Origin: Roseococcus pinisoli
GTDB lineage: Bacteria; Pseudomonadota; Alphaproteobacteria; Acetobacterales; Acetobacteraceae
Length of the DNA: 64,000 nt
Reading direction: 5' to 3'
NCBI RefSeq assembly: GCF_018413645.1
Contig: NZ_JAHCDA010000001.1
Span: 1,240,001 to 1,304,000, forward strand
The notes under the pieces were generated by a model. That model was not told the origin of the DNA. It ran no database searches and worked only from the letters and a program-made list of their open reading frames with translations. Both the position numbers and the translations under genes were made by a program. This document shows, piece after piece, positions 16,974 to 41,015 of this stretch; within the stretch, counting starts at the first letter, position 1; each line of letters starts with the position of its first letter.

Positions 16974-19553
16974 CTACAGAGCTTCCGGTTCGGCCGCGAG
17001 GGCCTTGAGGTGGTAAAGCGCATCCTGCGCTTCTCGGGGGGAGAGACGGTCGGGATCCATTCTCTCCAAAGCTTCCAACACTGGGTTGGCCGGGGCCGGG
17101 GCGGCAGGCCGGGCGAAGAGCGGCATCTCGGCGGTCAGCGGGTCTGCCGCCTCGCGCGCGCGTTCCTCGAGCGAGGCCAGCACGGCGGCGGCGCGCTTCA
17201 GGACCGGGGTGGGCACGCCGGCCAGCTTGGCCACATGCACGCCCCAGCTCTTCTCGGCCGCGCCGGCGGCGACGCTGTGCTGGAAGACCACCTCGCCCCG
17301 CCATTCGCGCACCTGCATGGCGGCCAGGCGCATCTCCGGCAGCCGGTCGGCCATCGCGGTGAGCTCGTGGAAATGCGTGGCGAAGAGGGTGCGGCAACGG
17401 ATCCGGTCGTGCAACGATTCCAGCACCGCGGTCGCGATGGCCAGGCCGTCCCAGGTCGCGGTGCCGCGGCCCACCTCGTCCAGCACCACGAGGCTGCGGG
17501 GGCCCGCGAGGTTGAGGATGGCGGCGGTCTCCGTCATCTCGACCATGAAGGTGGAGCGCCCGCCGGCGAGGTCGTCGGCGGCGCCGACGCGGCTGAAGAG
17601 GCGGTCCACCAGGCCGATGCGCGCCGCCGTCGCCGGCAGGAACAGCCCGGCCTGGGCCAGGATCACCATCAGCGCGTTCTGCCGCAGCCAGGTCGACTTG
17701 CCGGCCATGTTGGGGCCGGTGAGCAGGCAGAGGCGCCGGCCGGGCGAAAGATCGCAGTCATTGGGCACGAAGCCCGGCCCCTTGGCCTTGCGCAGGGCGG
17801 CCTCCACCACCGGGTGGCGGCCGGCCTCGATGGCGAAGTCCGGGCGCTCGGTGAGATGGGGGCGGCACCAGGCGCCCTCGGTCGCGAGCTCGGCCGAGGC
17901 GGCGAGCACGTCGATGGCGGCAAGTTCGCGCGCCGCCTCGGCGATGGGCTCGGCCTCGGTCAGTATCATCTTGCGCAGATGGGCGATGACCAGGCGCTCG
18001 CGCTTCGCCGCCTGCTCGCCGGATTCGGAGAGGCGGCGGTCGAGGTTCGCCAGCGCCGCGCAGGTGAAGCGATGCGCATTGGCCATGCTCTGGCGATGGA
18101 TGGGGGCGAGGTCGCCCACGGCCATGGCGGGCGCGCCGCGCAGCAGCTTCTCGCCGGCGGCGGCGGGTACCTCCGCGAGGTAGCCGAGCTGCTGGTGGTG
18201 GCGGATCTTCAGCGCGGCGACGCCCCAGGCCTGGGCGAGGTCGACCTGCATGGCCGCGATGGCGCCCCGCGCGTCGTCGCGCAGGCGGCGCAGGGCATCG
18301 AGCTCGCCATCATAGCCGACGGCGACGACATGGCCGTCATCCAGCCGCGCGGGCAGCTCGGCGGCCAGGGCGCGGGCCAGTTCGGCGGCGATGGCGGGCG
18401 CGGCGGAGAGGGGGGCGATCGCCCCGGCCAGCAGGGCGGGCTCCGCCCCGGCCAGCGCCACCGCCAGCGCCGAGGCGCGCTGCAGCCCGTCGCGGATGGC
18501 GCCGAGGTCGCGGGGCGAGAAGCGCTCCAGGCTGATGCGGGCGAGGGCGCGGGCCATGTCCGGCGCGCCCTTGAGCGCGGCGCGCAGCGCGGCCCGGCGC
18601 GGCGTATCGGCATGCAGCGATGCCACGGCCGCGTGCCGCGCGCCGATCGCGGCAAGGTCGTCGAGCGGCGAGGCGAGGCGCGCCGCCAGTTCGCGGGCGC
18701 CGGGGCCGGTCAGGGTGCGGTCCACGGCGGCCAGCAGCGAGGCGCCGCGCGGCCCCTCCAGGATATCGAGGCTGCGCCGCGTGGCGGCATCCAGCAGCAG
18801 GACGCCCCGGGCGCCCTCGGCCACCGGCGGCGAGAGGCGGGGCAGGGCGCCGTTATTCACCGCGCGCACATATTCGACAGCCATGGCCGCCGCCGCGACC
18901 TCGGCCTCGGCGAAGGTTCCGAAGCCGTCCAGCGAGGCGACGCCCAGCGCGCCGGCCAGCCGGGAGGCGGCGTCGCGCGGGGGCAGGGAGGGCACGGCGT
19001 CCTCGATGCCGAGCGCCTCTTCCGCCAGGATCTCGGCCGGGGCCAGGCGCGCGATGAGCGCGGCCGGCTCGGCGCCCGACTGGGTGAAGAAGAGGCCGGT
19101 GGAGACGTCGATCCAGGCGGCGCCGCCCCGCACCAGAGCCAGCAGCCAGGCCGGGCGCGCGGCGTCGAGCAGCGCTTCCTCGGTGGCGGTTCCCGGCGTC
19201 ACGATGCGAACGATCTCGCGGCGTAACGTCGGCGCGCGGCGGGCCTTGGCCTCCTCCGGCGTCTCCAGCTGTTCGCAGATGGCCACGCGGAAGCCGCGCC
19301 GGATCAGCCGGGCGAGGTAGGCCTCGTGGCTGTGGGCGGGCACGCCGCACATGCGGATGGGGCGGCCCTGATGCTCGCCGCGATGGGTGAGGGCGAGGCC
19401 GAGCGCCTCGCTCGCGGCCTCGGCGTCGTCATGGAACAGCTCGAAGAAATCGCCCATGCGAAAGAAGACGAGCGCCGATCCGGCCGCGGCTTTCGCCGCG
19501 AACCATTGCGCCATTGCCGGGGTTGCCCCTTCCGCCGTGATCCTTTGCTCCAC
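16974..19553 (-). CDS. mutS: DNA mismatch repair ATPase MutS, 5' end at prophage junction
   Basis: Recognises mismatches and recruits MutL. Visible are the mismatch-binding F-x-E motif (FRMGDFFELF, about 31-40), Walker A GPNMAGKSTWLRQ and the MutS signature region (STFMVEMTETA, VVLDEVGRGTATWDGLAIA). GTG 19553 gives 859 aa and ATG 19514 gives 846; neither has a clear ribosome site. The frame remains open far upstream but there reads antisense-like Arg-rich sequence through the integrase. The phage integrase gene ends 29 bp upstream on the same strand, so the native promoter has probably been displaced. Confidence 0.95.
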   Translation of the reverse strand: MEQRITAEGATPAMAQWFAAKAAAGSALVFFRMGDFFELFHDDAEAASEALGLALTHRGEHQGRPIRMCGVPAHSHEAYLARLIRRGFRVAICEQLETPEEAKARRAPTLRREIVRIVTPGTATEEALLDAARPAWLLALVRGGAAWIDVSTGLFFTQSGAEPAALIARLAPAEILAEEALGIEDAVPSLPPRDAASRLAGALGVASLDGFGTFAEAEVAAAAMAVEYVRAVNNGALPRLSPPVAEGARGVLLLDAATRRSLDILEGPRGASLLAAVDRTLTGPGARELAARLASPLDDLAAIGARHAAVASLHADTPRRAALRAALKGAPDMARALARISLERFSPRDLGAIRDGLQRASALAVALAGAEPALLAGAIAPLSAAPAIAAELARALAAELPARLDDGHVVAVGYDGELDALRRLRDDARGAIAAMQVDLAQAWGVAALKIRHHQQLGYLAEVPAAAGEKLLRGAPAMAVGDLAPIHRQSMANAHRFTCAALANLDRRLSESGEQAAKRERLVIAHLRKMILTEAEPIAEAARELAAIDVLAASAELATEGAWCRPHLTERPDFAIEAGRHPVVEAALRKAKGPGFVPNDCDLSPGRRLCLLTGPNMAGKSTWLRQNALMVILAQAGLFLPATAARIGLVDRLFSRVGAADDLAGGRSTFMVEMTETAAILNLAGPRSLVVLDEVGRGTATWDGLAIATAVLESLHDRIRCRTLFATHFHELTAMADRLPEMRLAAMQVREWRGEVVFQHSVAAGAAEKSWGVHVAKLAGVPTPVLKRAAAVLASLEERAREAADPLTAEMPLFARPAAPAPANPVLEALERMDPDRLSPREAQDALYHLKALAAEPEAL

Positions 19554-19582
19554 AAGTGACAACAATAAGCTATTCCAATGAG
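19554..19582. other. Prophage-chromosome junction region (probable attL)
   Basis: This 29-bp gap between the integrase stop and the mutS GTG is AT-rich compared with both sides (TGACAACAATAAGCTATTCC begins at 19556). Its place between integrase and a host gene makes it, or the first codons of mutS, the likely attachment core. No second copy was found in the window, so the exact core is unproven. No hairpin terminator separates integrase from mutS. Confidence 0.5.
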
Positions 19583-20701
19583 TTACCTGCGGTTTTTGAC
19601 GGCTTTTGACGCGGCCTTTTCCAGTCGGCCGACGGCGGCGCGCGCCATCTTCTCTTGGTCCGCCCCTTCCGTATAGAGGTGAACGGTCCGCAACGAGTCC
19701 CATCCCTGCGCGGCAGCTATCTCGCCATCGCCGTTCCCCGCCTCGAGGAGCATCTGCGCGCGGAGACGCCGAAGCCCGTGCAGACCCCGTTTGGTGGGCC
19801 AGCCTTCGGCGCGGAGCATTGCGCGGACGGCGGTGGAGAGCGCCATTTTGGTCCACTCGCGACCGTCTGCCCGGGTCAGGATATGCGTAGCCGTAGGCGC
19901 CTCCGCCCGCCAGCGCCGCATTTCCCAAGCCAGGGCGGCCGGGACGATCAGCCGAAGGGGAGGCTTGCCGGCCGCCTCGCGATAGCGGCGCGTCTTTTCC
20001 GGCTGGAGCGTAATGACCCCCGCGGCCTCGTCGTAGGCGTCCCATAGTAGCCGGCTCAAATCGCCCTTCCGCTGCCCGAGATGGTAGGCGAGCACGACGG
20101 CGCGGCGCACGGGCTCTGGCCATGCCTGCATGGCGTGTCGAGCATCGGCCTCCGTCCAGGCTGGTATGTGCCCCCCGGGGAGTGATCGCAGCCGCGTAAG
20201 CGGCGACATGGCCATGCGGCCGCGATCGACCGCCCAGGCGAATAGGGCGGCGACGGACTGGCCAAATACTGTGGCAGCCCCGGGGCCGCGCGCGTGCGCG
20301 ATGGCGTCGCGCATATCGAGGAGATCCGCCCGCAGGCGGCGCATCTCCGCCGGAGCCAAGTCCACCGCGGCTCGCGCACTCCAGGCCGGTACCTCAATTG
20401 CGGCCAGGTATCGATCACGGTTGGTCCGTGTGTTGCTGGATGTCTCGGCCCATTCGCGGGAGCGCCGCCAGTCTGCGATCAGGGCGCCGATTGTGCCCTC
20501 GGCGTAGCGCGCACTCGATACCCCCCGGGCCGCGGCAAGCGCCGCGGAGAATGCTGGGTCGGCGATGTCAGGGAGGCGTGCGCCGGTTACCCGGCAATAC
20601 CAGTAGACGGCCTCGGTTCCGTCAGCCCGCCGCGCGCGAACCCCGCGCACGCCTTTTGGACGAGAGGGCGGCGAGCCCGGCGGCGATGGCGTCTCTGACA
20701 T
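19583..20701 (-). CDS. int: Prophage tyrosine recombinase (integrase)
   Basis: A 372-residue site-specific recombinase that would integrate and, with the excisionase, excise the prophage. The catalytic set is complete: Arg211 (LGQRKGDL), a Lys near 236, His308-x-x-Arg311 (LHGLRR), Trp334 (AAQGWDS) and nucleophile Tyr343 (HLYTEG). The N-terminal half has an Arg-rich start and a core-binding helical domain (about 65-165). Start ATG 20701 lies inside the excisionase gene (about 80 bp overlap), implying translational coupling. It is the last phage gene before mutS. Confidence 0.93.
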   Translation of the reverse strand: MSETPSPPGSPPSRPKGVRGVRARRADGTEAVYWYCRVTGARLPDIADPAFSAALAAARGVSSARYAEGTIGALIADWRRSREWAETSSNTRTNRDRYLAAIEVPAWSARAAVDLAPAEMRRLRADLLDMRDAIAHARGPGAATVFGQSVAALFAWAVDRGRMAMSPLTRLRSLPGGHIPAWTEADARHAMQAWPEPVRRAVVLAYHLGQRKGDLSRLLWDAYDEAAGVITLQPEKTRRYREAAGKPPLRLIVPAALAWEMRRWRAEAPTATHILTRADGREWTKMALSTAVRAMLRAEGWPTKRGLHGLRRLRAQMLLEAGNGDGEIAAAQGWDSLRTVHLYTEGADQEKMARAAVGRLEKAASKAVKNRR

Positions 20702-20942
20702 TAGGTATCTCCGGGTGCGGAGCGTCCGCAGCGAGGCGGTGTGAGTCAAGCGCGGGCGGCTTGAGCTTGTCCAGCCACGCGTCCAGATCCTCACGGAGCC
20801 ACGCCACTCGGCCGGTGGTGAGCCTGACGGCTGGCACCGCCGGCACCACCACTTGGCGGAACGTGCTGCCCGAGAGCCCGACGTAGGCGGCGGCCAGCGG
20901 CTCCCGGAGCGCACGCGGCCAGTAGGGCAGGGTATCACCCAT
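20622..20942 (-). CDS. Excisionase-like / AlpA-like DNA-binding protein
   Basis: A 106-residue protein with an N-terminal winged-helix-like segment (LAAAYVGLSGSTFRQVVVPAV) and WLREDLDAWLDKL, the pattern of AlpA/excisionase DNA-binding proteins that read phage attachment sites. The start at ATG 20942 follows an excellent GGAGGTGA. It overlaps the integrase start by about 80 bp. The C-terminal 35 residues are basic and low-complexity. The excisionase role is inferred from fold and position next to int. Confidence 0.7.
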   Translation of the reverse strand: MGDTLPYWPRALREPLAAAYVGLSGSTFRQVVVPAVPAVRLTTGRVAWLREDLDAWLDKLKPPALDSHRLAADAPHPEIPNVRDAIAAGLAALSSKRRARGSRAAG

Positions 20943-21189
20943 CGTCGTCACCTCCCGCGCGCTCGCGCCGTTGCTGGCCGAGCCTGGGCTTCCTGGCCAT
21001 GAAAGGCTGGCCGCGCTCGCGGGCGAGTCTGCGTTGGCAGAGCCGCTGACGCAGCACGTTGAGACGCGCTGTGACTGATTTGCGCCGCTCGTCCAGCTCG
21101 CGAGCGCGGGACGTCAGATCCTCCCACTCCCGCATCTCCGCTGGCGATGCCTCGCTTAGGCAGGTGTCCCTCACCGCATCACCCGCCAT
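20935..21189 (-). CDS. Small coiled-coil protein, prophage early region
   Basis: An 84-residue protein of unknown function. Residues 10-60 are strongly helical with heptad-like charge (SPAEMREWEDLTSRARELDE), and the C-terminus is very basic. It overlaps the downstream excisionase start by 8 bp and the upstream gene by 11 bp, so it belongs to the leftward early operon. No enzyme motif is visible. Confidence 0.6.
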   Translation of the reverse strand: MAGDAVRDTCLSEASPAEMREWEDLTSRARELDERRKSVTARLNVLRQRLCQRRLARERGQPFMARKPRLGQQRRERAGGDDDG

Positions 21190-21442
21190 CGCCCGCCTCC
21201 GTGCGCTGGAGGGCAGCCCGGACGGCGAGGCCGAGGGAGCGAAGCCCGTGGCCGCCGCATTCGACAGCGGAAACGACAACGTTGGCGACGCAACCCATCT
21301 GCCAAAGCTCGTAGAGCGCGTTACCCATCTCCTTGTCGGCCCCCCAATCGAGCAGCCGCACACAGCCATCCTCCGGCAGCCACAACAGCGCCTTGGCCTG
21401 CGCCGGGCTGAGCCCGCGCGCGATGGTGGCGGGGTCAACCAT
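21179..21442 (-). CDS. Hypothetical protein, prophage early region
   Basis: An 87-residue protein of unknown function with a compact mixed composition (LSPAQAKALLWLPEDGCVRL, then GNALYELWQMGCVANVV) that looks like a folded wHTH-sized domain. Start ATG 21442 overlaps the upstream gene by 8 bp. Its place in an unbroken series of overlapping leftward genes supports that it is real. Confidence 0.6.
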   Translation of the reverse strand: MVDPATIARGLSPAQAKALLWLPEDGCVRLLDWGADKEMGNALYELWQMGCVANVVVSAVECGGHGLRSLGLAVRAALQRTEAGDGG

Positions 21443-21659
21443 GGGGTGGCTCCTCCTGTAGCGGGAACGCGACCCGGATATGGCTCGGACCGCCCCAAAC
21501 CGCGGCGCTCCGAGGATCAGCTAACCCGCGGCTATAGATCGCGCAGTCTCGCTGCCGTGCCCGGCTCCCATCTGCGTACCCCGCCTCCCTGTACTGCTCG
21601 ACGAGGCCGGGCACGCGGCCCAGATCGACGATGGTGGCGTTGAGGACGGTGATCTTCAT
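21435..21659 (-). CDS. Hypothetical protein, prophage early region
   Basis: A 74-residue protein of unknown function. It starts with a short strand (MKITVLNATIVDLG) and has a Tyr/Arg-rich middle. ATG 21659 forms a TGATG junction with the upstream stop, so translation is coupled. No motif was recognised. Confidence 0.55.
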   Translation of the reverse strand: MKITVLNATIVDLGRVPGLVEQYREAGYADGSRARQRDCAIYSRGLADPRSAAVWGGPSHIRVAFPLQEEPPHG

Positions 21660-22012
21660 CACGCCCCTCCCTCGGCCTGCGCGGCGAGGGCGCGGGTACG
21701 CTCCACATAATTGGGGAATTCCGGGTCAGGGCGAGGCGGGTCGAGAGGCCCCATCGCGTGCATTCCCATACCGAAAAGCCACACGCTGGTTCCGCGGCAA
21801 ACGCCGCACGTCAGCACGTCAAGCGACGCGTCATCATCCCAGGGGCGGAATGACCATCCGGGCTGCGTCTGGGCGAACTGACGGCACCAGGGGCAGCGCT
21901 GGATGCCCCCGAAGCGCTCCATCAGGCGATCTTCCGCGCGGCGGGAAATCCAACCCGCCACGCGCGTTTCCAGGCGGCGCAGGACGCCGCCCATCTGCCG
22001 CTCATCCGCCAT
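21659..22012 (-). CDS. Small zinc-ribbon protein, prophage early region
   Basis: A 117-residue protein with two CxxC pairs (CPWC at about residue 33 and CGVC at about 67) that should bind one zinc, preceded by a helical RRLETRVAGWISRRAED segment. Start ATG 22012 overlaps the upstream gene by 11 bp. The function is unknown; zinc ribbons of this size in phage early operons often bind nucleic acid or a host protein. Confidence 0.6.
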   Translation of the reverse strand: MADERQMGGVLRRLETRVAGWISRRAEDRLMERFGGIQRCPWCRQFAQTQPGWSFRPWDDDASLDVLTCGVCRGTSVWLFGMGMHAMGPLDPPRPDPEFPNYVERTRALAAQAEGGA

Positions 22013-22751
22013 CGGCCTGCCCTCCGGTCGCGGGCGTGCGGGCGCGGTGGTTGTCCAGCCCCTTCGCGGCGCGCCACTCATCGACCGAACTGTCGCCGTC
22101 GATCGCGACGCGGGCCGCCATAACGGCAGTCTGCACCGCCTCCTTCCAGACCGCTTCCGCGCTCTCCTCCAGCATGGCCTTGCACAACTCCCCGAACTCT
22201 TCCGCGAGAGCGATGGTCATGATCCGGTCGCCCGGGAACTTCGCGCGGGCGCGCCGCAACTCGGCCGCCATGTCGCGGATAAACCGCTCGGTGGGATCGG
22301 AGGCGTCAGGTGCCGCCGCATACGCCTCCCCGCGCGCCTGCTCCAGCGCGGTGGCCAGCGCCGCGCCGAGGTCGGGCGGCGGGGTGAGGGCTTGCAGTGC
22401 GGCCAGTCGGGCAGCATCGCGTCTGCGCCCATACTCCTCGGGTGCCATGGCGATGGCTTCGGCAGGCGCAGTCGCCGGGAGCGTCCAAAAGCACTCCTCG
22501 GCCGCATCTCGCCCGTTGATCCACGCGGCGCCGAGGTCGGCGTCGGTGCGGACGGGAAACTCCTCGAACGTCTCCTCCAGGACCTGGACGAATTCGTCGC
22601 AGGTCAGCCCGAGCATATCGGGCTGATCGTCCGGCGACGTGTAGTCAGGCAGTTCACATGCCCGCGTCAGCGCGGCGGCGATAAAGCGGGCCACGTAGGT
22701 GTTCTCCGGCTTTACCGGCGCGCCGTCCCAGGGCGTCGCGAGCGGGCTCAT
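22002..22751 (-). CDS. MazG-like domain protein, prophage early region
   Basis: A 249-residue protein. The C-terminal third (about 170-240) resembles the MazG/dUTPase-like all-alpha NTP pyrophosphohydrolase fold, with IALAEEFGELCKAMLEE providing the E-E-x-x-E metal motif and a later Glu/Asp helix (KEAVQTAVMAARVAIDGD). The N-terminal 150 residues are unrecognised. It might cleave nucleotides or alarmones during phage growth. Start ATG 22751 overlaps the HNH gene stop by 4 bp. Confidence 0.6.
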   Translation of the reverse strand: MSPLATPWDGAPVKPENTYVARFIAAALTRACELPDYTSPDDQPDMLGLTCDEFVQVLEETFEEFPVRTDADLGAAWINGRDAAEECFWTLPATAPAEAIAMAPEEYGRRRDAARLAALQALTPPPDLGAALATALEQARGEAYAAAPDASDPTERFIRDMAAELRRARAKFPGDRIMTIALAEEFGELCKAMLEESAEAVWKEAVQTAVMAARVAIDGDSSVDEWRAAKGLDNHRARTPATGGQADGG

Positions 22752-23125
22752 GCGGTCGCTCCGATCGGCCGTCGCGCGCCGAACAAGACGGCCTCGCCGC
22801 GATGCGTGTTGGTCCGCGCCGTCACCGCCTCGAGGTGCGCCGGATTGCAGCAGCAGCGCGTGCGGCAACGATGGTCGAGGACGAGGCCGGGCGCGATAGG
22901 GCCGACCAGCTCCTCATAGACCGCGCGATGCGCCACGGGCTCGCGGCCCTTGTGCCAGGCGCGGCCATAGCCGTTGCGGTTCAGGCGGCCGATCCAGTGC
23001 CAGCAGGGCCCGACCAGCCCAGCCGGGGCATCCGCGCCGATGCGCAGATTCAGGCGGAGGTTCTCGGGCAGCCGCTCGGGCGAGATCCTGCGCGGCCGCC
23101 GGGCGGCGTTATGCGCGGCGCTCAT
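22748..23125 (-). CDS. HNH endonuclease
   Basis: A 125-residue HNH-type nuclease. The core is visible as LVLDHRCRTRCCCNPAHLEAVTAR with the usual spacing of His and the NPAHL finger, flanked by CWHWIGRLNRNGYGR, a substrate-strand motif of phage and mobile HNH proteins. The role could be homing, packaging or general nicking; packaging HNH genes usually sit next to the terminase, which this one does not. It overlaps both neighbours by 4 bp. Confidence 0.82.
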   Translation of the reverse strand: MSAAHNAARRPRRISPERLPENLRLNLRIGADAPAGLVGPCWHWIGRLNRNGYGRAWHKGREPVAHRAVYEELVGPIAPGLVLDHRCRTRCCCNPAHLEAVTARTNTHRGEAVLFGARRPIGATA

Positions 23126-23466
23126 GCGCGGGGAACCTGGAAAAAGCCCAGCTGCCCACGATACGGCCGGAAGGGCAGCGGCCGCGCGTTGCGGATCACG
23201 AAGCCGTAGGGGCCGGTGAACCAGGGCGAGGCCGACGCGTCCACGCAGTCGACGATCTCGGCCTCGCCGACGATGCCGCCATAGTCGAGATGGTCGGGCC
23301 GGGCGATGTCGGGCCAGTCCCAATCGGCGGGCGAGCCGTCATGCTTCTTGCCGGCGTGGATGAGGATGCGGCCGCGCAGCTGCGTCTTCCAGTCGCGGTT
23401 TTCGATGTCCTTGTGGCCGTTGGCGATGAGCCAGGCCCAGGGCTGTTTGATCGAGAGGGTCAGCAT
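23122..23466 (-). CDS. ASCH-domain protein
   Basis: A 114-residue PUA-like RNA-binding protein. The characteristic opening (LTLSIKQPWAWLIANGHKD, IENRDWKT, GRILIHAGKK) identifies an ASCH domain. Such proteins bind or modify RNA, and some are amidohydrolases on modified nucleosides. Start ATG 23466 is 2 bp after the sliding-clamp stop, and its stop overlaps the HNH start, so it belongs to the same operon. Confidence 0.82.
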   Translation of the reverse strand: MLTLSIKQPWAWLIANGHKDIENRDWKTQLRGRILIHAGKKHDGSPADWDWPDIARPDHLDYGGIVGEAEIVDCVDASASPWFTGPYGFVIRNARPLPFRPYRGQLGFFQVPRA

Positions 23467-23468
23467 GG

Positions 23469-24614
23469 TCACACCCTCATCGGCATGAGCACGGCCACGC
23501 CTTCGGCGCCGGTGACGCGGATCGGCGCCCGGCCGTCCTCCACGCGGAAGGTCAGCCCTTCGCCCCCGCGAAAGACGCGCAAGGTGTCCAGCAGATAGCG
23601 GGCCTGCACGCCGAATTCGGGGTGCGCACCGTTGCTGGCCCACGCGGCGACCTCAGCCGGAACATCGAGCTGAGCCTCCCCGTTTTCCGGCTGGCGGCAA
23701 TGCAGCGTGACCGCCAGCCCGCTCCCATTGGTGACCCTGATGGGGCGACTGCGCTCGTCACTGATGGCCGATACCGACTGGATCGCCTCCATCATCCGGC
23801 GCGGGTCCAGGATCTGCAGCGCCTCGCCTAAGCCGTCGGCCGGCATCACGCGGCGATAGTCGGGGAACGTCCCGTCGATGAGCTTGCTGTTGAAGGTCCA
23901 GCTGCCCGCCTGAAACTCGATGCGCGAATCGGTCTGGCGGGCCTCGACCGGCCGGCCCGGCGGCAGCTGCGCCAGCATGGCGCGCAGGATGTTCGCGGTC
24001 TTGCGGGGTAGGATGCCCGCGAGAGGCATGTCGCCCGCCGGCAGCGGTATCTCGGCGAGCATCAATCGATGCCCATCCGTCGAGGCGGCGCGCAGGTTCC
24101 GCGCCTCGTCATCGTGCGGCGGGTGGAGGTAGATGCCGTTCAGGTAATAGCGCGTCTCCTCGGTGCTGACCGCGTGCATCGTCCGATCAAGCAGGGCGCG
24201 GAGGTCGCCGGCGGGCACGGTCCATTTCGCGGCCCAGGCAGGGGCAGCCTCAGTCGGGAAATCCTCGACCTCCAGCGCGAAGAGCTGCACGCGCATCGTG
24301 CCCGCCGCCAGCTCCAGCTGGCCGCCTTTGGCCCGCGTGAGCGTCACTGTCTGCTCCTCGCGGATGTGCGGCAGCAGGGCGGCGAGGCGCGCGGCGCTGG
24401 CCGTGATGGGCGGCAGGTCACCGTCGCCCTTGGCCTCGATGCTGATCCGGATCTCGAGGTCGGTGGCCCGCACCGTCAGCACGCCATCCTTCGCCTCGAG
24501 ATGGAGGTGGGCGAGGATGGGGATGGTATTGCGGCGTTCCGTCACCGCGACGGCACGGGCAAAGGCGGCGCGCAGCGCGCCGGCCTGGATCGCGAAGGAC
24601 TGCTTATCGGACAC
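23469..24614 (-). CDS. dnaN: DNA polymerase III beta subunit (sliding clamp), prophage-encoded
   Basis: A 381-residue ring-clamp protein that should tether a polymerase to DNA. All three DnaN-like domains appear. Domain 1 starts QAGALRAAFARAVAVTERRN and contains TIPILAHLHLEA; domain 2 contains STDGHRLMLAEIPLP; the loop GTFPDYRRVMP and C-terminus VAVLMPMRV match bacterial clamps. It sits in the prophage leftward early operon rather than beside dnaA/recF, so it is an extra, phage-borne clamp. GTG start, overlapping the zinc-finger gene by 11 bp. Confidence 0.92.
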   Translation of the reverse strand: MSDKQSFAIQAGALRAAFARAVAVTERRNTIPILAHLHLEAKDGVLTVRATDLEIRISIEAKGDGDLPPITASAARLAALLPHIREEQTVTLTRAKGGQLELAAGTMRVQLFALEVEDFPTEAAPAWAAKWTVPAGDLRALLDRTMHAVSTEETRYYLNGIYLHPPHDDEARNLRAASTDGHRLMLAEIPLPAGDMPLAGILPRKTANILRAMLAQLPPGRPVEARQTDSRIEFQAGSWTFNSKLIDGTFPDYRRVMPADGLGEALQILDPRRMMEAIQSVSAISDERSRPIRVTNGSGLAVTLHCRQPENGEAQLDVPAEVAAWASNGAHPEFGVQARYLLDTLRVFRGGEGLTFRVEDGRAPIRVTGAEGVAVLMPMRV

Positions 24615-24810
24615 GCGGGGCCTCCATGGTTTCCTGGCAGGGGACGCAGCGAATCGCCGACGGATGCTTGTCGCGCCGGCGCTGCGGGATCTCGACGTCG
24701 CAATCGACGCAGTAGCGGGAGCCCGGGCCGCTCGCGGGGCGAGCCGCGGCGATGTGGGCAGCCGTCTGGAGCTCGGTGAGCTCGGCGGCGCGGTCCATGT
24801 CGTCCGCCAT
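24604..24810 (-). CDS. DksA/TraR-type C4 zinc-finger protein
   Basis: A 68-residue protein with a C4 finger of the TraR/DksA type (YCVDCDVEIPQRRRDKHPSA then CVPC) preceded by an acidic helix. Small TraR proteins bind RNA polymerase through its secondary channel and alter promoter choice. A role in tuning host transcription during phage growth is likely but inferred. ATG 24810 makes a TGATG junction with the upstream gene. Confidence 0.78.
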   Translation of the reverse strand: MADDMDRAAELTELQTAAHIAAARPASGPGSRYCVDCDVEIPQRRRDKHPSAIRCVPCQETMEAPRVR

Positions 24811-25571
24811 CACGCCGCGCTCTTCCTGGGCTCGGCGCGGACTGCCTCGGCGAAATCCTGGGCCTCGCTGAGGTCCCAGCCGAACCAGGCCACCAGGTCG
24901 AGCGCGCCGCGGCCCTGCTGGATCATCTGGCGCGCCTCGGCCTTGTCCTCCTCGGGGATGGTGGACGGCTTGGCGGGCGCCGGCTTGGCTGCGGGCGCCG
25001 TGGGAGGCTTGATGAGGCCCGCGTCCAGACGCAGCCGATACTTGACGCGCATCGCGCCGACGCTCGCGCAGGGCGGGCCCTCCAGCGCATTGACGCGCGC
25101 GAGCAGATCCTTGCCGTGCTGGCTGATGTTGTGGCCCTCGGCGTCGAGCAGCCGCAGGCGCTCGTCGGTCCAGGTGGAGGGCAGTCTGCCCCGGTTGCCC
25201 TTGCGCTCGAGCCGCGGGACGGCCGCGATGGCGGAGGCTGCGGCGCAGGCAGCGGCCTCTTGCCGATCCTCGTCCTCGGGCGCGGTGACGATGGCCTCCG
25301 CAACCGCGGCGGCGGCCCGGTCCAGCTCGTCCTCATCACGATCGGCCGCGACGTTGGCGCCGGCGACGCGCGGCAGCAGGCGGTCGATCCGGTCGAGTAG
25401 TGCCTGGTCAGTGCTCAGCTTCAGAGGCGCCCCCGCGCATCTGCTAAGCATGTGCAGGGTCAGTCGCGCCCTGGCCTCCCGAAGCATGCCGTGGGCCGCG
25501 TGCAGGCTCGTCTGCAGCTGCTCGACGTCGGTGAGGGCGCGCTCCAGCTGCGCCGCCAAGGAGGGCATCAT
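24810..25571 (-). CDS. Hypothetical protein, prophage early region
   Basis: A 253-residue protein of unknown function. The N-terminal 90 residues are helical, the middle is Ala-rich and acidic. A central block (LPSTWTDERLRLLDAEGHNI) looks like a small HTH or GcrA-like element, and a Pro/Lys linker precedes a C-terminal helical domain. ATG 25571 overlaps the upstream stop (ATGA). It may be a DNA-binding regulator; evidence is weak. Confidence 0.55.
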   Translation of the reverse strand: MMPSLAAQLERALTDVEQLQTSLHAAHGMLREARARLTLHMLSRCAGAPLKLSTDQALLDRIDRLLPRVAGANVAADRDEDELDRAAAAVAEAIVTAPEDEDRQEAAACAAASAIAAVPRLERKGNRGRLPSTWTDERLRLLDAEGHNISQHGKDLLARVNALEGPPCASVGAMRVKYRLRLDAGLIKPPTAPAAKPAPAKPSTIPEEDKAEARQMIQQGRGALDLVAWFGWDLSEAQDFAEAVRAEPRKSAA

Positions 25572-26086
25572 GGGTGCATGCTCCATTCGAGGAGATCGAG
25601 GCCCCAGGTGAGGGCGTAGGCGAGGCCGAGGGCGATGGCGCCCTGGGCGAGAGGCCGGCGACGCGGGCCGGAGCCAGGCGCGAGGTCGAGCAGGCTCGTC
25701 TGCACCGCGCGCCGCGTGGTCCCGCGGAAATGCGTGCAGCTGCGCTCATAGACCCGGACATAGGCGACGCGCGCGGCGTCGACCGTCGGGTGCAGGCTCT
25801 CCACGCGGCGCCAGCGCGGCACCAGCACCGGCCGGCCGTCGTCGGCGATGTTGTAGGCGCGGACCTCGCGATAGCCGTGCCGCTCGCGCTCACCGCGGCC
25901 CAGGCGCACCGGCTGCACGCCGCGCGACGTGATCAGGTAGCGCAGCTCGCCGAGGTCATCCTCGATGGCGGTCGGGGGCGCGGGCGCCGGGAAGGCGATG
26001 GCAGGCGGCGGCGCGATGCGGCCGGCGGGCCAGGCCAGCAGCCGCAGCGCGAGCGCCATGCGGGGCAGAACGGCCGCGCCGATCAT
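25568..26086 (-). CDS. Hypothetical membrane-associated protein
   Basis: A 172-residue protein with hydrophobic segments at the N-terminus (about 3-30) and C-terminus (about 150-168, IALGLAYALTWGLDLLEW), so it is probably membrane-attached. The middle is basic, with no recognised motif. It overlaps both neighbours by 4 bp in the leftward operon. Confidence 0.5.
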   Translation of the reverse strand: MIGAAVLPRMALALRLLAWPAGRIAPPPAIAFPAPAPPTAIEDDLGELRYLITSRGVQPVRLGRGERERHGYREVRAYNIADDGRPVLVPRWRRVESLHPTVDAARVAYVRVYERSCTHFRGTTRRAVQTSLLDLAPGSGPRRRPLAQGAIALGLAYALTWGLDLLEWSMHP

Positions 26087-26478
26087 GCTCCACGCTCCTG
26101 CGCGGCGGCCGCGGCCTCGATGGCGTTGAGGAGCGGCGACCAGCCCCAGGCGCGGCAGGAGCCGGGTAGTGCCGCGCGCAGCATGCCGACCGAACCGGCG
26201 GTGACCGGGCAGACGCGCAGCAGCGCCGCGGCCTGCAGCTGGCCCGGCACGCCGCAGGCCTTGGCGCGCAGGCGGAGCCGCGCTTCGCTGCTGCGCAGGC
26301 GCCGCAGGTCGGCGTTGGAGGGGGCCTCTCGGATCGCCTCGGCCATGGCGTCAGCCGCGACAAGGAGATCGTCCGGCGTGAGGCCCGGCATGCCGAGGAT
26401 GCGCTCGGCCAGGCGCTCGAGGTCCGTCGTGGTCGGCGGGAGGTCGAGCGCGGGGCGGGCTGCGTTGGCGGCGCTCAC
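26083..26478 (-). CDS. Hypothetical protein, prophage early region
   Basis: A 131-residue helical protein of unknown function starting at a GTG that overlaps the upstream stop (GTGA). It contains LERLAERILGMPGLTPDDLL and a basic helix (RRLRSSEARLRLRAKACG). The overlap pattern supports coding; the open frame continues upstream but is Arg-rich there. Confidence 0.5.
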   Translation of the reverse strand: MSAANAARPALDLPPTTTDLERLAERILGMPGLTPDDLLVAADAMAEAIREAPSNADLRRLRSSEARLRLRAKACGVPGQLQAAALLRVCPVTAGSVGMLRAALPGSCRAWGWSPLLNAIEAAAAAQERGA

Positions 26479-26609
26479 GCGAAGAGCTCCCACACGCGGA
26501 GCGCCCACACGATGAGGACCAGCGCGGCGATGTCGGTGAGCCACGCGACAACGGAGATCCAGCGCGGCAGGTCGCCCTGGTCGGCGCAGGTCAAGGGGAG
26601 CTGGCCCAT
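26475..26609 (-). CDS. Small single-span membrane protein
   Basis: A 44-residue protein with one transmembrane helix (WISVVAWLTDIAALVLIVWA) and a short polar N-terminus. ATG 26609 forms a TGATG junction with the upstream stop, and its own stop overlaps the next GTG. Function unknown. Confidence 0.5.
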   Translation of the reverse strand: MGQLPLTCADQGDLPRWISVVAWLTDIAALVLIVWALRVWELFA

Positions 26610-26809
26610 CAGGCGGCCCGCCGCACCGGGGCCGGCACCCGATCGAGAGAAACGATCTCCCAATTGCCAGGCCCGCCGCCGCTCGTCCGGTGGGCATCGA
26701 TGCGCGCCAGGCGCTCGGCCTGCTCGGTGTCATCGGCCGAGAGGGCCAGTGAAGAGTGGGTCAGATCACCCAGGCGCAGGGCGACGTCGTAGTGCTGCTT
26801 GCTGGCCAT
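26609..26809 (-). CDS. Hypothetical protein, first gene of leftward early operon
   Basis: A 66-residue protein of unknown function (SKQHYDVALRLGDLTHSSLA). It is the promoter-proximal gene of the leftward run that ends with int. The region just upstream (26838-26891) holds two repressor-type operators. Start ATG 26809 is preferred; ATG 26821 is possible. Confidence 0.55.
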   Translation of the reverse strand: MASKQHYDVALRLGDLTHSSLALSADDTEQAERLARIDAHRTSGGGPGNWEIVSLDRVPAPVRRAA

Positions 26810-26837
26810 GCGGCCCTCCATCGGCGTGTGCGATGGA

Positions 26838-26891
26838 GGTTGCATTGGATGCATCCTAAGCGCAAGAGAAAAAGGTGCATACAACGCACCT
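26838..26891. promoter_or_regulatory. Two 19-bp operators at the leftward early promoter
   Basis: GGTTGCATTGGATGCATCC (26838-26856) and AGGTGCATACAACGCACCT (26873-26891, perfect AGGTGC/GCACCT arms) are near-palindromes of the same length and pattern as the sites at cI/cro. A related half-site GGGTGC is at 26925-26930, overlapping the start region of the rightward gene at 26935. The region lies between divergent genes. The repressor identity is inferred. Confidence 0.65.
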
Positions 26892-26934
26892 TATGTCATG
26901 TAGAAGTTTGTAACTTAGGGCAGAGGGTGCATTG

Positions 26935-27219
26935 ATGGCGGATGTTGAAGCGAGGTTGGATGCAATCGAGGCGAAGCTCGGTCGTGCCTTGGAGTGGATG
27001 GAATTTCTGGCGAAGAGGGCGGGCCTCCCTCAGATGGAGGACGCGGCCCATGTCCGCCCCGAGTTTACGGAGCGCCAACTGATCATCGCGCTATTAACGG
27101 CCGTTGGTCAGATCCACGAGCGCACGACCGGCGAGATCATGCGCATCCGCATCCCAACGGGCGCAGGCGGCCGCCTGAGTTTTTCCAGCGATGGGTCGTA
27201 CGTGCCTTCTCGGGACTAG
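26935..27219 (+). CDS. Hypothetical coiled-coil protein
   Basis: A 94-residue protein with an N-terminal coiled coil (EARLDAIEAKLGRALEWMEF). It is divergent from the leftward early operon, and a repressor half-site lies immediately upstream of its ATG. It converges on the gene behind cI with a 4-bp overlap. Function unknown. Confidence 0.55.
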   Translation: MADVEARLDAIEAKLGRALEWMEFLAKRAGLPQMEDAAHVRPEFTERQLIIALLTAVGQIHERTTGEIMRIRIPTGAGGRLSFSSDGSYVPSRD

Positions 27220-27581
27220 TACCGCGAGCGCTGGCGCTGGCGGCGCGTTTTGACAGCACCAGGCGCCTCAACACCATCCCGGTCAGGCGGCGGGATGGCC
27301 TTCCATGCGTCGCTCATGGCCGTATGCGCGGCATGGTAGGCTTCCGATATATGCAGGACTTCGTCGATCGGGGGCCAGGAATCACGTTCGATCTGGCAAT
27401 CGTAGAAATTGGACGTGCTCGGTGCCCGTTCTTCACCTGGATTGATGACTGTGATTTTTGTGTGCAGGCGTTCCAGAGCTTCGCCAATCTTTTTGATGCT
27501 CTCGCCGCTCGCCTCAGCCTTTTCCGCAGCCTTCAGGTAGGCGGCCCGCGCCCTCAGGTAAGTCTCGACTTCGCCCGTCAT
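27216..27581 (-). CDS. Hypothetical protein co-transcribed with cI
   Basis: A 121-residue, largely helical, charged protein (RAAYLKAAEKAEASGESIKK). It begins one base after the cI stop, so it should be made with the repressor in the lysogen. Genes in this place often alter host traits or exclude other phages. Nothing in this sequence identifies the mechanism. Confidence 0.6.
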   Translation of the reverse strand: MTGEVETYLRARAAYLKAAEKAEASGESIKKIGEALERLHTKITVINPGEERAPSTSNFYDCQIERDSWPPIDEVLHISEAYHAAHTAMSDAWKAIPPPDRDGVEAPGAVKTRRQRQRSRY

Positions 27582-27582
27582 G

Positions 27583-28143
27583 TCAGCCCCTCTTCACCCA
27601 ACGCACGATCGCGGCGCTTTGCAGGTAAACATTCTGCTCCGCCTCTTGTGTTTCGTAGCTCAATAGTTGAACGGCTGAGCCAGCGCCAGGCAGGACTTTC
27701 TTAACCAGCCGACGCCCATCGATGGTTAGCACGACGCAGTCCTTGTTCAGGATCTCTCGGCTGGTCACTGGCTGCACATCGCAAATCAAAACGTCGCCAT
27801 CCCGGTAGGCGGGCACCATGGATGTGCCCCTCACGCGCACCGCGAAGGGCTCGATCAGGCCAGGGGGTGTGTCGACGACTTCTCGGTCGTCTTCGACCGG
27901 GATAACGACGGCCCCTGCTCCCACGTAACCAATGAGAGGCGCGACCGATCCGGATAAGGCGCCGAGGATTTCGTCCTCAGTTCGGTAGCCCATCGCACCG
28001 AAGATAGCGATCGCCCCTTCGTTGAAGAGCGGGATATCGCCTTTTTCGTAGCGGTACACGCTGCTCTTATCGAGACCGCTGTCGCGGATCACCTCGGCCT
28101 GCTTGAGGCCGGCCTTCACCCGAATTTGGCGAATAGAATTCAT
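27583..28143 (-). CDS. CI-type prophage repressor with S24 self-cleavage domain
   Basis: A 186-residue repressor maintaining lysogeny. It has an N-terminal XRE helix-turn-helix (about 5-60, KQAEVIRDSGLDKSSVYRYE) and a C-terminal LexA/CI peptidase domain: cleavage site Ala76-Gly77 (YVGAGAVV), nucleophile Ser108 (RGTSMVPAYRDGD) and general base near Lys148 (RRLVKKV). RecA-stimulated self-cleavage, hence SOS induction, is expected. It is divergent from the cro-like gene with 92 bp of operator DNA between them. Confidence 0.92.
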   Translation of the reverse strand: MNSIRQIRVKAGLKQAEVIRDSGLDKSSVYRYEKGDIPLFNEGAIAIFGAMGYRTEDEILGALSGSVAPLIGYVGAGAVVIPVEDDREVVDTPPGLIEPFAVRVRGTSMVPAYRDGDVLICDVQPVTSREILNKDCVVLTIDGRRLVKKVLPGAGSAVQLLSYETQEAEQNVYLQSAAIVRWVKRG

Positions 28144-28150
28144 GCCGCAT

Positions 28151-28228
28151 TGTTGCATTTGCCGCACCCAATTGCGGCGGCCTTCAATGCAACCTGACTC
28201 TTGCGTTTAGGGTGCATTGTGTGCAACC
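28151..28228. promoter_or_regulatory. Immunity-region operators between cI and cro-like genes
   Basis: Two 19-bp sites face each other: TGTTGCATTTGCCGCACCC (28151-28169; reverse complement begins GGGTGCGG) and GGGTGCATTGTGTGCAACC (28210-28228). A half-site TGCAACC lies at 28188-28194. They match the pattern at 26838-26891 (GGxTGCA, about 5-bp centre, TGCAxCC), the arrangement expected for CI/Cro control of divergent promoters. Confidence 0.7.
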
Positions 28229-28235
28229 TATCTCC

Positions 28236-28472
28236 ATGACCCTCGCCGATTACCTGGCCAATCATCGAGAGACTCGCATGGCCTTCGCCGCAAGGGTGGG
28301 CGTCGCTTCGTCCACCATCAGCCGACTTTGCCGGGGCGAAACCGCGCCGGAGGCCTCTTTGGTCGCGGCTATCGTCCGTGCGACTGGCGGGGAAGTGTTG
28401 CCCAACGACCTCTTCCCCGCGGCGATGGCACAGATCTCGCTGGCAGTTGCCCAGCCCAACGAGCCGGCGTGA
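28236..28472 (+). CDS. Cro-like / YdaS-type DNA-binding protein
   Basis: A 78-residue helix-turn-helix protein (MAFAARVGVASSTISRLCRG) opposite cI, first gene of the rightward early arm. Size, position and operators just upstream fit Cro. A few residues after the HTH (GGEVLPNDLFP) resemble YdaS/Cro-like proteins of other proteobacterial prophages. Start ATG 28236. Confidence 0.82.
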   Translation: MTLADYLANHRETRMAFAARVGVASSTISRLCRGETAPEASLVAAIVRATGGEVLPNDLFPAAMAQISLAVAQPNEPA

Positions 28473-28477
28473 TGCGC

Positions 28478-28756
28478 CTATCCAGGCTTGCGCTGCACGA
28501 TGCGCGCCAAACCGCAGGCCGGGCAACGCCACGTCTCGTCCATCTGACCAAAGACGCCGAAGTGTCGGCTTGGCACCTCGCCCTCCCACTTCATCTGCGT
28601 CCCATCCACCGGGCACACAGTCTCCGGATTGGTGGGGCTCGCCTCCAGCGCAGACAGCCGTTTCTCGAGCGCCTCGATGCGCGCGGGGGCTTCTTTCAGG
28701 GCCTTCCAGGTAGGCCAGCGATCGAGGACCGCAAGAATGTCGGATAGTCCCAGCAC
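28478..28756 (-). CDS. Small zinc-ribbon protein
   Basis: A 92-residue protein with an N-terminal helix/coiled coil and a C-terminal zinc ribbon (CPVDG ... CPACGLARI). A GTG start at 28756 follows GGGAGAG. It faces the cro-like gene and overlaps the start of the divergent 28737 gene by 20 bp. Function unknown. Confidence 0.55.
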   Translation of the reverse strand: MLGLSDILAVLDRWPTWKALKEAPARIEALEKRLSALEASPTNPETVCPVDGTQMKWEGEVPSRHFGVFGQMDETWRCPACGLARIVQRKPG

Positions 28757-28967
28757 GTCTATATCTCTCCCTCATTTCGACCTTCGCCCCGGCAGCGTCA
28801 CCATCGGCGCACTCTCGTTCACCACGATTGAGGTTGCGACGAGACCTGATGGATCGAAGGTTATGACCATCCTGCGGGACGGTCGGGTTGAATTCCAGCA
28901 GAGCCTTTCGGGGCCTGCGGCGAATCACCTTGCTCATCAACTGATCCAGCCCAGCGAGGCCGCATGA
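28737..28967 (+). CDS. Hypothetical protein
   Basis: A 76-residue protein with a beta-rich pattern (SVTIGALSFTTIEVATRPDG, VMTILRDGRVEFQQ) that reads as real coding sequence. Start ATG 28737 overlaps the divergent gene by 20 bp. Function unknown. Confidence 0.5.
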   Translation: MSDSPSTSISLPHFDLRPGSVTIGALSFTTIEVATRPDGSKVMTILRDGRVEFQQSLSGPAANHLAHQLIQPSEAA

Positions 28968-28987
28968 TGGCTGGCCGGCTCCTTGCC

Positions 28988-29266
28988 TCAGTGTGTCGTC
29001 TGGCGCTTCCAGCCACTGGCAACGGCGGCGGCAAAGGTCGCCCTGCCGTCCCGGTCCATGCGGCGTCCTGTCTCCGCGCAGAATGCCTGCAGCTCCTCGA
29101 GTTTGATCTCGACGCGGACAAGGCTGCTGGCGGGGAATTGCGACAGCTGCTTTTCGATGCGGGTTTTCCACTCGATCCATGTGATCGGGAGATTGTTGGC
29201 GTCGACCTGAGCTTTCCGAAACTCGGCATAGGTCGCCTCGGGCAACCAGGCGATGGCGATGGCCAT
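28988..29266 (-). CDS. Hypothetical protein
   Basis: A 92-residue protein starting MAIAIAWLPEATYAEFRKAQ, with a valine-rich strand (SLVRVEIKLEELQAFC) and a polar C-terminus. ATG 29266 follows a good CGAGGA. It belongs to a type of small cytoplasmic protein common in proteobacteria and phages without known function. It is leftward amid rightward genes. Confidence 0.6.
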   Translation of the reverse strand: MAIAIAWLPEATYAEFRKAQVDANNLPITWIEWKTRIEKQLSQFPASSLVRVEIKLEELQAFCAETGRRMDRDGRATFAAAVASGWKRQTTH

Positions 29267-29324
29267 AGGTGTTCCTCGTCCTCTGACTTGGAGGCTGAGC
29301 CTGCCACATCTGGAGGCATGCATC

Positions 29325-29414
29325 ATGCGTGATCGCCATGCGCAGACCCTGACGCACCTGCAGGTCCTCCGCACCTTGAACCCTACAACGCGTCCTGGAG
29401 GGCCTCGCTCATGA
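29325..29414 (+). CDS. Possible 29-aa leader peptide
   Basis: ATG 29325 opens a 29-codon frame (MRDRHAQTLTHLQVLRTLNP at its start) whose TGA overlaps the ATG of the next gene. A GGAGG lies about 9 bp upstream. The coupling suggests a translated leader for the 29411 gene, but the frame is short and could be chance. Confidence 0.35.
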   Translation: MRDRHAQTLTHLQVLRTLNPTTRPGGPRS

Positions 29415-29884
29415 GCGGCCACGTTGAGCTCACGCCGCAACAGCGGATCTTCAAGGCCCTGACCCTGCAGCTCGTCCAGCTCTGCGGCGGGTTCGAGGCT
29501 GCCGCCGCCATCCCCGGCGTGCGCGTCAGCTGGCAGCAGCTGCAGAATTACACCTCCATGGAGAAGCCACTTGTCGCGCCGGTCGACGTGATCGCGGCGC
29601 TCGAGATGGTGGCCGGCAAGCCTCTCGTCACGGCCGAGCTCGCGCGCCTCTCTGGGCACGGCCTGATCCGGCGCGTCGCCATGGCGGTGGGTGAGTTGGC
29701 GGGCCGTATGGCCAAGATCGGCAAGGAGTGCGGCGAGGCCTTCGCGGCCTGGGCCGAGGCCATGGCCGACGGCAAGCTGACGCGCGAGGAGATGGTGCAT
29801 CTCGCCCACGAGCTTGGCGATATCGAGACGGCCGCGGTCGAGGCCCAGGGCGCCGTCCAGAAGATGCTGAGCGACCTGGAATGA
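29411..29884 (+). CDS. Phage regulatory protein, CII-like (tentative)
   Basis: A 157-residue helical protein. Its N-terminal part (TLQLVQLCGGFEAAAAIPGV, then a VSWQQLQNYTS segment) resembles CII-type phage regulators that recognise DNA through a lambda-repressor-like fold. The C-terminal half is an amphipathic helix bundle. Position after cro and before replication genes fits CII. It overlaps the next gene by ATGA. Assignment is by pattern only. Confidence 0.5.
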   Translation: MSGHVELTPQQRIFKALTLQLVQLCGGFEAAAAIPGVRVSWQQLQNYTSMEKPLVAPVDVIAALEMVAGKPLVTAELARLSGHGLIRRVAMAVGELAGRMAKIGKECGEAFAAWAEAMADGKLTREEMVHLAHELGDIETAAVEAQGAVQKMLSDLE

Positions 29885-30102
29885 CCCTCAAGCTCCTGGG
29901 CCTCGAGCAAGTCTATGCGCTGATCAAGTCGGCCTGCGCGGCCGCGGGCGGCCAGAAGGCCTGGGCGAGGCACTACGGCCTCGCTCCCTCCAGCATCACC
30001 GAGGTGCTCCACGGTCGCCGCGATCCCGGCCCCGGTCTGCTGCGCGCGCTCGGCCTCCAGCACGTCCCCCGATACGCAAAAGTGAGAATTCCGAACCGAT
30101 GA
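29881..30102 (+). CDS. Small helix-turn-helix protein
   Basis: A 73-residue protein with a clear HTH (GGQKAWARHYGLAPSSITEV, then LHGRRDPGPGLLRALGL) of the Cro/YdaS type. It is coupled by 4-bp overlaps to both the CII-like gene and dnaB. Its role may be a second switch regulator or a replication accessory. Confidence 0.65.
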   Translation: MTLKLLGLEQVYALIKSACAAAGGQKAWARHYGLAPSSITEVLHGRRDPGPGLLRALGLQHVPRYAKVRIPNR

Positions 30103-31610: not shown

Positions 31611-31619
31611 GAGGCGAGC

Positions 31620-31889
31620 ATGGCGCGACCTAAGGCCTTGGCTGAGGGCGAGGATGTCGGCGGCATCGCCTCCGACCGGCTGCGCTCCCTCATCGAGCGC
31701 ATCGAGCGGCTGGAGGAGGAGCGCAAGGCCCTCGCCGACGACATCAAGGACATCTTCGCAGAGGCCAAATCCGCGGGCTTCGACGTGAAGGTGCTGCGCC
31801 AGGTGCTCCGCGTCCGGAAGATGGAGCCGGCCGAATTCGAGGAGCAGCAGACGCTGCTCGATCTCTACCTGCGCGCGCTGGGCATGTGA
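31620..31889 (+). CDS. gapR: GapR-family (DUF2312) nucleoid-associated protein, prophage
   Basis: An 89-residue relative of alphaproteobacterial GapR, which clamps overtwisted DNA ahead of moving forks and assists topoisomerases. Diagnostic segments are visible: LRSLIERIERLEEERKALAD, IKDIFAEAKSAGFDVKVLRQ and LLDLYLRALG. It lies 9 bp after phage dnaB, placing it in the replication module. Whether it aids phage forks or disturbs the host's is unknown. Confidence 0.88.
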   Translation: MARPKALAEGEDVGGIASDRLRSLIERIERLEEERKALADDIKDIFAEAKSAGFDVKVLRQVLRVRKMEPAEFEEQQTLLDLYLRALGM

Positions 31890-31893
31890 CGTC

Positions 31894-32211
31894 ATGACGC
31901 CCGCCGCCATGCGCCACGCGCCCGCCATCCTCCAGCACCTCGTCGAGGATCGGGAGATCGCCTCCCTGCCGCTCACCGTGGGCGCTGTGTGGCTCTATCT
32001 CGTCCTCGCCATGCTGGACCGGGCGCATACCGGGTACGGCCTCGTCGAAGACGCTGCGCGCCTCTCTGAGCAGGTGGTCTGTCATCGAGGTGAGATGGAG
32101 ACGGCCCTCGCGATGCTGCTGGAGCTCCGGCTGCTCGAGCGTGGCGTGGCTGATCCGTACCTGCGCAGCCCGTTCCTGATGCGCCTCCTCCGGCCTTCGG
32201 GCCGGCGCTGA
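31894..32211 (+). CDS. Hypothetical protein in replication module (winged-helix-like)
   Basis: A 105-residue protein with a winged-helix-like run (LPLTVGAVWLYLVLAMLDRA, DAARLSEQVVCHRGEME). It resembles in size the small wHTH partners of phage replication initiators. It starts 4 bp after gapR. No specific family was recognised. Confidence 0.55.
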   Translation: MTPAAMRHAPAILQHLVEDREIASLPLTVGAVWLYLVLAMLDRAHTGYGLVEDAARLSEQVVCHRGEMETALAMLLELRLLERGVADPYLRSPFLMRLLRPSGRR

Positions 32212-41014: not shown

Positions 41015-41015
41015 C

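Follow-up and report, generated by a model that had tools for sequence, protein, structure and literature searches.

The 64,000-nucleotide stretch of Roseococcus pinisoli DNA analysed here, referred to as the window, belongs to a 1.78-Mb contig in a genome of 4,789,249 bp (4.79 Mb) and holds most of a prophage of approximately 45.3 kb that lies between maeB, on one side, and the mismatch repair gene mutS, on the other. In window numbering the prophage runs from 19543 to 64868, and its far end is 868 bp beyond the window. As far as comparison of sequences can establish this, the prophage is an insertion bounded by attachment (att) repeats, the native promoter has been lost from the mutS side, and mutS, glnD and murJ now lie at the end of a leftward phage operon. 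The reading that we favour, with modest confidence, is that integration at the mutS start codon has placed mutS-glnD-murJ under this operon, which would respond to the phage repressor CI and to SOS. The features concerned are:

19543..64000 in the window, no strand: prophage; its other end is just outside, where the second att core (64856-64868), a promoter block (64902-64874) and an orphan GTG (64866) are followed by maeB
19543..19555, minus strand: att core at the mutS end, TTGTGGAGCAAAG, which includes the mutS GTG start (19553-19551); junctions defined by comparison with the relative G008
16974..19553, minus strand: mutS, frame intact and GTG kept in the lysogen; MutS domains I-V, NCBIfam MutS, a single match in the genome
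14204..16963, minus strand: glnD (PF08335), 10 bp downstream of mutS for the chosen start codon
12667..14196, minus strand: murJ, lipid II flippase (PF03023), 7 bp behind glnD with the start chosen; single copy in the genome

The mutS start codon as attachment site

Twenty relatives from the same genus were considered, 15 with a complete mutS 5' end and five that gave no or an incomplete mutS match. An alignment to prophage-free relatives at the mutS 5' end had been proposed in an earlier, sequence-only reading of this DNA, and it reveals maeB directly adjoining mutS, without interruption, in all 15 same-genus loci. The gene order is maeB (divergent), mutS, glnD, murJ, trpS in each of the four relatives examined for it. 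In R. pinisoli, maeB and its native intergenic DNA are found from 64855 onwards (89% identical to the nearest relative, G008) and mutS starts at 19553, so the two genes are separated by the prophage. The closest matches to its malic enzyme in a plasmid collection are alphaproteobacterial, among them Methylobacterium, Shinella and Ensifer.

The 13-bp sequence TTGTGGAGCAAAG is present at both host/phage junctions (19543-19555 and 64856-64868). These are the only two copies in the genome, and the reversed control pattern gave 0 copies. Neither attB nor attP (the bacterial and phage attachment sites) is found in the assembly, and both core copies represent the integrated form. On this comparison, with a direct repeat at both prophage ends and an empty site in the relative, attB is the start codon of mutS. 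The sequence GCTTTG-TGGAG-CAAAGC on the maeB side is an inverted repeat, presumably of the sort bound by tyrosine recombinases. Because the GTG start codon lies inside the core, the MutS protein is unaltered by integration, and it matches its NCBIfam family over nearly the full length, without a stop codon. Near-repeats, TTTTTGACGGC and CTTTTGACGCG, are also carried by the 3' end of the integrase gene (19583-19640, plus strand) and are possible arm-type integrase sites.

The string CTTCGC-N17-CTA, whose second hexamer stops 7 nt short of the GTG, is found upstream of mutS in 14 of the 15 same-genus loci, which share kinship and are not 15 independent tests; the exact string is absent from L006. 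The spacing to the GTG stays the same when the interval between the GTG and the downstream ATG is longer, as in L002 and L004, and in L005, L007, L015 and L016 the stretch examined contains no alternative in-frame start upstream of the ATG of MAQWF. The hexamers resemble a rhizobial consensus, CTTGAC-N17-CTATAT. A promoter-like block at a fixed distance from the GTG predicts a leaderless mutS transcript, and this arrangement suggests that transcription of mutS begins at or beside the GTG. In the lysogen phage DNA lies directly upstream of the GTG and offers no Shine-Dalgarno sequence (+1.3 kcal/mol; eight leftward phage genes have -4.7 to -11.6 kcal/mol, and cI has -1.7), an absence that fits a leaderless start. 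An ATG 13 codons past the GTG has a possible Shine-Dalgarno sequence (-7.7 kcal/mol).

In R. pinisoli the promoter block is at 64902-64874, beside maeB and pointing into the prophage, and the native intergenic block (64855-65000) is likewise next to maeB at the other prophage end. The sequence-only reading had regarded displacement of the native mutS promoter as probable, and its position here, judged by comparison with the relatives, confirms that the prophage has displaced it. The start codon of a leaderless gene may be suggested as a possible attachment site, one that allows a promoter swap with the protein untouched. The orphan mutS GTG (64866) continues into phage DNA as an open frame of 78 codons (counted by hand), for which there is no evidence of function. 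Control of maeB by the prophage was considered and dropped, since maeB keeps its native intergenic DNA as far as the core.

The leftward phage operon and its repressor

The following features belong to the leftward operon and its putative control region.

26609..26809, minus strand: first gene of the leftward operon; open reading frame with a possible ribosome-binding site, no NCBIfam match
23469..24614, minus strand: phage DNA polymerase sliding clamp (DnaN), with three DNA_pol3_beta Pfam domains and TIGR00663 above cut-off
20622..20942, minus strand: excisionase-like small protein; phrog_25900 (E 8.6e-8) and phrog_66, 'excisionase and transcriptional regulator' (E 5.2e-7), no Pfam match
19583..20701, minus strand: tyrosine integrase, last gene of the leftward operon; PF00589 (E 4.9e-10) and phrog_1 (E 7.9e-20), stop 29 bp before the mutS GTG
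26838..26891, minus strand: putative leftward promoter region with operator-like sites, perfect at 26838-26856 and with 3 mismatches at 26873-26891
27583..28167, minus strand: CI-type repressor with a LexA-like S24 autocleavage domain (PF00717, E 7.1e-13)
28210..28228, plus strand: perfect operator-like site at the start of a cro-like gene (28212-28472, plus strand), upstream of cI

There are 16 leftward phage open reading frames (ends 26609 to 19583), and in all 15 that follow the first the start codon overlaps or abuts the preceding stop. The sequence-only reading had described leftward, mostly overlapping genes from 26809 down to 12667, an integrase ending 29 bp upstream of mutS on the same strand and no visible terminator between the two, and it was correct on each point. 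The integrase stop is at 19583 and the mutS GTG at 19553, and beyond the phage part the gaps are 29 bp to mutS, 10 bp to glnD and 7 bp to murJ, the last two depending on the choice of start. Scanning 16500-29500 for terminators gave 5 sites, where chance would give 4.8 on average, with none of them between 26809 and mutS. Those on the minus strand, 26892-26872 (inside an operator-like site) and 28569-28556, are both upstream of the first gene at 26809.

The repressor has a helix-turn-helix and an S24 domain, and the Ala-Gly of a putative cleavage site, the Ser and the Lys are all present in its sequence. Its alignment with a LexA chain is weak (E 0.0066) and covers the cleavage region, including the Ala-Gly and the Lys; the chain has Ala where the repressor has Ser. 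The cI start codon (about 28143, minus strand) is almost without a Shine-Dalgarno sequence (-1.7 kcal/mol), as expected for a leaderless repressor transcript.

The pattern GGNTGCA-N5-TGCANCC occurs with zero mismatches exactly twice in the 64 kb, at 26838-26856 and, between cI and cro, at 28210-28228. Allowing at most one mismatch, there are three sites in the window (the third at 36535, in the late genes) compared with 0.34 expected, and none of 100 shuffles reached three. At a tolerance of three mismatches the sites are not in excess overall (62 vs 54.85). A 20-bp module common to 26849-26868 and 28198-28217 gave two exact matches, with 0.03 expected. As the operator pattern, and likewise the module, were picked after the sites had been seen, these counts are a description more than a test. 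Taken together, the two support CI operator-like sites at the leftward promoter, and make it likely that CI represses the leftward operon ending in int.

In lambda-type control a cI/cro pair is combined with operators common to two promoters, the leftward operon finishes with int and xis, and the repressor is LexA-like. The R. pinisoli prophage has a cI/cro pair, operator-like sites at two promoters, int and an xis-like gene last in the leftward operon, and a LexA-like repressor. Unlike in lambda, the last genes of the leftward operon are host genes, and no terminator-like site was found in the interval from int to mutS.

A phage DnaN is encoded in the same leftward operon that reads towards mutS. 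MutS works with the host sliding clamp, and a phage clamp produced together with MutS could matter.

Expression of mutS, glnD and murJ in the lysogen

Under the favoured reading, the phage integrated by means of its tyrosine recombinase at the mutS start codon. The crossover kept the GTG and the full MutS frame, but left the mutS promoter, native and apparently leaderless, stranded next to maeB. Since then mutS-glnD-murJ have formed the last part of the leftward phage operon, which runs from the first gene at 26809 to the xis-like gene and int. In the lysogen CI would hold the leftward promoter low. DNA damage would cleave the LexA-like CI and open the phage promoter, transcription would pass through int into mutS until Int and Xis excise the phage, and excision would return mutS to its native promoter. 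The read-through, the expression levels and the SOS response are what we infer from this layout. Should expression follow the anatomy, prophage state would influence both the mutation rate and a cell-wall step that is usually essential.

In most bacteria studied murJ is essential. As it is also single-copy here, something must transcribe the operon in the lysogen, and possible sources are leak, cryptic promoters in int, mutS or glnD, and cells in which the phage has excised spontaneously.

Several observations weigh against the favoured reading. The promoter block found in the genus is missing in L017, L019 and L021, the three loci examined from outside it. No promoter-like site stands out on the phage side of mutS by either consensus used, although such scans can miss real promoters. 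An E. coli-type scan found none upstream of mutS on that side, nor any where the leftward promoter is supposed to lie. Four sites within 1200 bp upstream of mutS match at least 8 of the 12 positions of the consensus CTTGAC-N16..18-CTATAT; this is the background density (2.5 per kb), and the nearest site ends 120 nt before the GTG. Basal expression of murJ is left unexplained. Since excision disconnects mutS from the phage promoter, a rise on induction may be brief. Finally, no long-term mutator signature was seen in the flanking genes, in a comparison using 17 of 98 flanking-DNA segments, which has low power because of the large divergence from G008 (75 segments were found in G008, with about 86% DNA identity). 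Over 9783 sites, 351 derived changes fell on the R. pinisoli branch and 353 on the G008 branch, with transition to transversion ratios of 0.44 and 0.42. A long-lasting mutator would give a transition excess, and a young insertion would not.

The sequence-only reading had proposed that prophage state controls mutS-glnD-murJ, with mutS low in the repressed lysogen and high on induction. The layout stands, as does likely repressor control by way of the operator-like sites and LexA-like repressor, but the expression levels remain conjectural. Low mutS in the lysogen would have to be squared with the need to transcribe the operon for murJ and with the negative, low-powered mutator comparison. High mutS on induction needs a similar qualification, as int also excises the phage, which would cut mutS off, and the GTG is without a Shine-Dalgarno sequence.

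An explanation with a real, if minor, chance of being correct is that a cryptic constitutive promoter inside int or attR feeds mutS-glnD-murJ, and mismatch repair is hardly changed. The need for some promoter to act in the lysogen and the near-equal branch lengths and ratios are both in keeping with it. There are also precedents, reported for SpyCIM5 of Streptococcus pyogenes Manfredo (PMC3430984) and proposed for proteobacterial mutS elements (PMC5296598). In strain Manfredo mutL is reported to be rescued by a promoter inside a broken int, and this is the best precedent for such an explanation. The candidate sites upstream of mutS do not favour it, being at background density with the nearest 120 nt from the GTG, nor does the E. 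coli-type scan, whatever such scans may miss, and the int-mutS spacing is only 29 bp.

A bolder form of the favoured reading, which we consider rather unlikely, combines a damage pulse through int into mutS, ended by the excision it brings about, with a stranded mutS promoter from which leftward DNA at the far end of the phage would be transcribed in the lysogen. This two-way promoter exchange would wire mismatch repair, nitrogen signalling and lipid II export to CI/SOS.

It is improbable that the insertion silences mutS and makes the lysogen a stable mutator, with glnD and murJ served by internal promoters. The mutS side has lost the native promoter block, and the mutS start codon is buried and lacks a Shine-Dalgarno sequence, as this would have it, but branch length and transition to transversion ratio equal those of the prophage-free sister (a result of low power if the insertion is young), and mutS still matches its family over nearly its full length, with no stop. 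That the junction is an assembly or chance artefact is hardly credible, for although it is seen in the assembly of a single genome, both junctions lie within one 1.78-Mb contig and have the same 13-bp core, and their host sides match the relative.

Related elements, distribution and other prophage genes

Integration at mutS is of a kind already known. PMC5296598 reports that many beta- and gammaproteobacteria, Vibrio splendidus 12B01 among them, have mobile elements, some of them apparent prophages, inserted in mutS at the HTPMMQQ motif. These elements supply a new promoter and start, and excision left no scar in the three strains outside Vibrio in which its product was sequenced. As described there, they share with the R. 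pinisoli prophage an integrase, a location at the mutS 5' end, a host promoter on the far side and an open mutS frame, and their excision returns host control, as is proposed here. In R. pinisoli, too, mutS is cut from its host promoter with its frame open. The differences from those elements (PMC5296598) lie in host group (beta- and gammaproteobacteria rather than an alphaproteobacterium), in site (a coding motif with a new start, as opposed to the start codon upstream of the motif, with the GTG kept) and in the direction of the integrase. In E. coli 536, one of the strains in that paper, the gene annotated as integrase (DUF4102, 249 aa) is separated from mutS by 220 bp and directed away from it, whereas the R. 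pinisoli integrase is co-directional. Comparison of the two integrases gave no clear similarity (BLASTP against this one sequence had E 0.005 across 31 query residues, and phmmer was below threshold), but the 249 aa protein of 536, the one member compared, seems to lack a catalytic domain. The R. pinisoli core ends inside codon 4, and the corresponding motif, TPAMAQ from codon 11, is intact and free of the insertion. Among the 15 same-genus loci the core matches at 12 of 13 bases in G008 and at 7 to 9 of 13 in the others, and a close core in G008 alone marks the site as different from the conserved MutS motif used by those elements.

The SpyCI elements of S. pyogenes are islands, not whole phages. 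They are found in mutL within the mutS-mutL operon, and growth-phase cycling and a mutator phenotype have been measured (PMC3430984 and PMC4129442). The same sources report that mitomycin C stimulates excision of SpyCIM1, with which PMC4689407 is also concerned. As in R. pinisoli, a phage-like element parts a mismatch repair gene and the genes behind it from their promoter, and excision restores the host link in SpyCI. The site differs, being in mutL and not at the mutS start codon, and the R. pinisoli prophage, apparently a whole phage, is known from sequence alone. The sequence-only reading had cited SpyCI integration in the mutS-mutL region as precedent; the kind of system is right, but the site is mutL, and a closer mutS precedent is available from the beta- and gammaproteobacteria (PMC5296598). 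No report of an alphaproteobacterial counterpart was found in the open-licence papers searched, which were judged partly by title or abstract. What is new here is the host group, the use of a start codon as site, the shared direction of integrase and mutS, and the LexA-like repressor of a phage that is apparently complete.

Among 397 genomes of the family, a sample of a larger group, integrase homologues were found in 8 at E 1e-40, including R. pinisoli, the other seven being 39-45% identical. None of the 14 homologue loci retrieved (L038-L051) has mutS within the retrieved flanks. The best phage records for the integrase are Komagataeibacter phages (30% identity), and pattern scans of genome-contig and viral-contig collections gave no close relatives of the integrase or the phage DnaN. 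A further 120 family loci were drawn from part of the 388 positive family genomes, leaving out the same-genus rows, L017, L019 and 14 others; four are short (427 to 2080 bp). In 80 of the 120, maeB adjoins mutS. The integrase profile found no integrase beside mutS in any of the 120, even at E up to 10; it finds the R. pinisoli integrase (one of its own training sequences) and misses the short E. coli 536 integrase, so other integrase types could escape the survey. A Pfam scan of two controls and 71 open reading frames, at most two for any locus and all from the 40 that lack maeB, matched 68 families. The 25 of these that were listed include all families with at least two members, and Phage_integrase is not one of them, so it has at most one member, that of R. 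pinisoli itself. The insertion is so far a single case.

Judged by family matches, the prophage is apparently a complete temperate lambda-like tailed phage. Integrase, repressor, replication, packaging, head, tail and lysis genes are present, in a check that did not seek the small terminase and holin.

29411..54385, plus strand: rightward replication, packaging, head and tail genes, with PHROG matches to DnaB helicase, terminase, portal, protease/major head, head decoration, tape measure, tail and endolysin

Rfam gave no matches within the window. A NusG-domain protein resembling a phage antiterminator is encoded at 32847-33845 (plus strand), upstream of the terminase and late genes. The region 54784-62000 has a lower GC content (about 57-63% in 2-kb windows) and encodes a P63C-domain protein and an AraC-type regulator, and it could be cargo.

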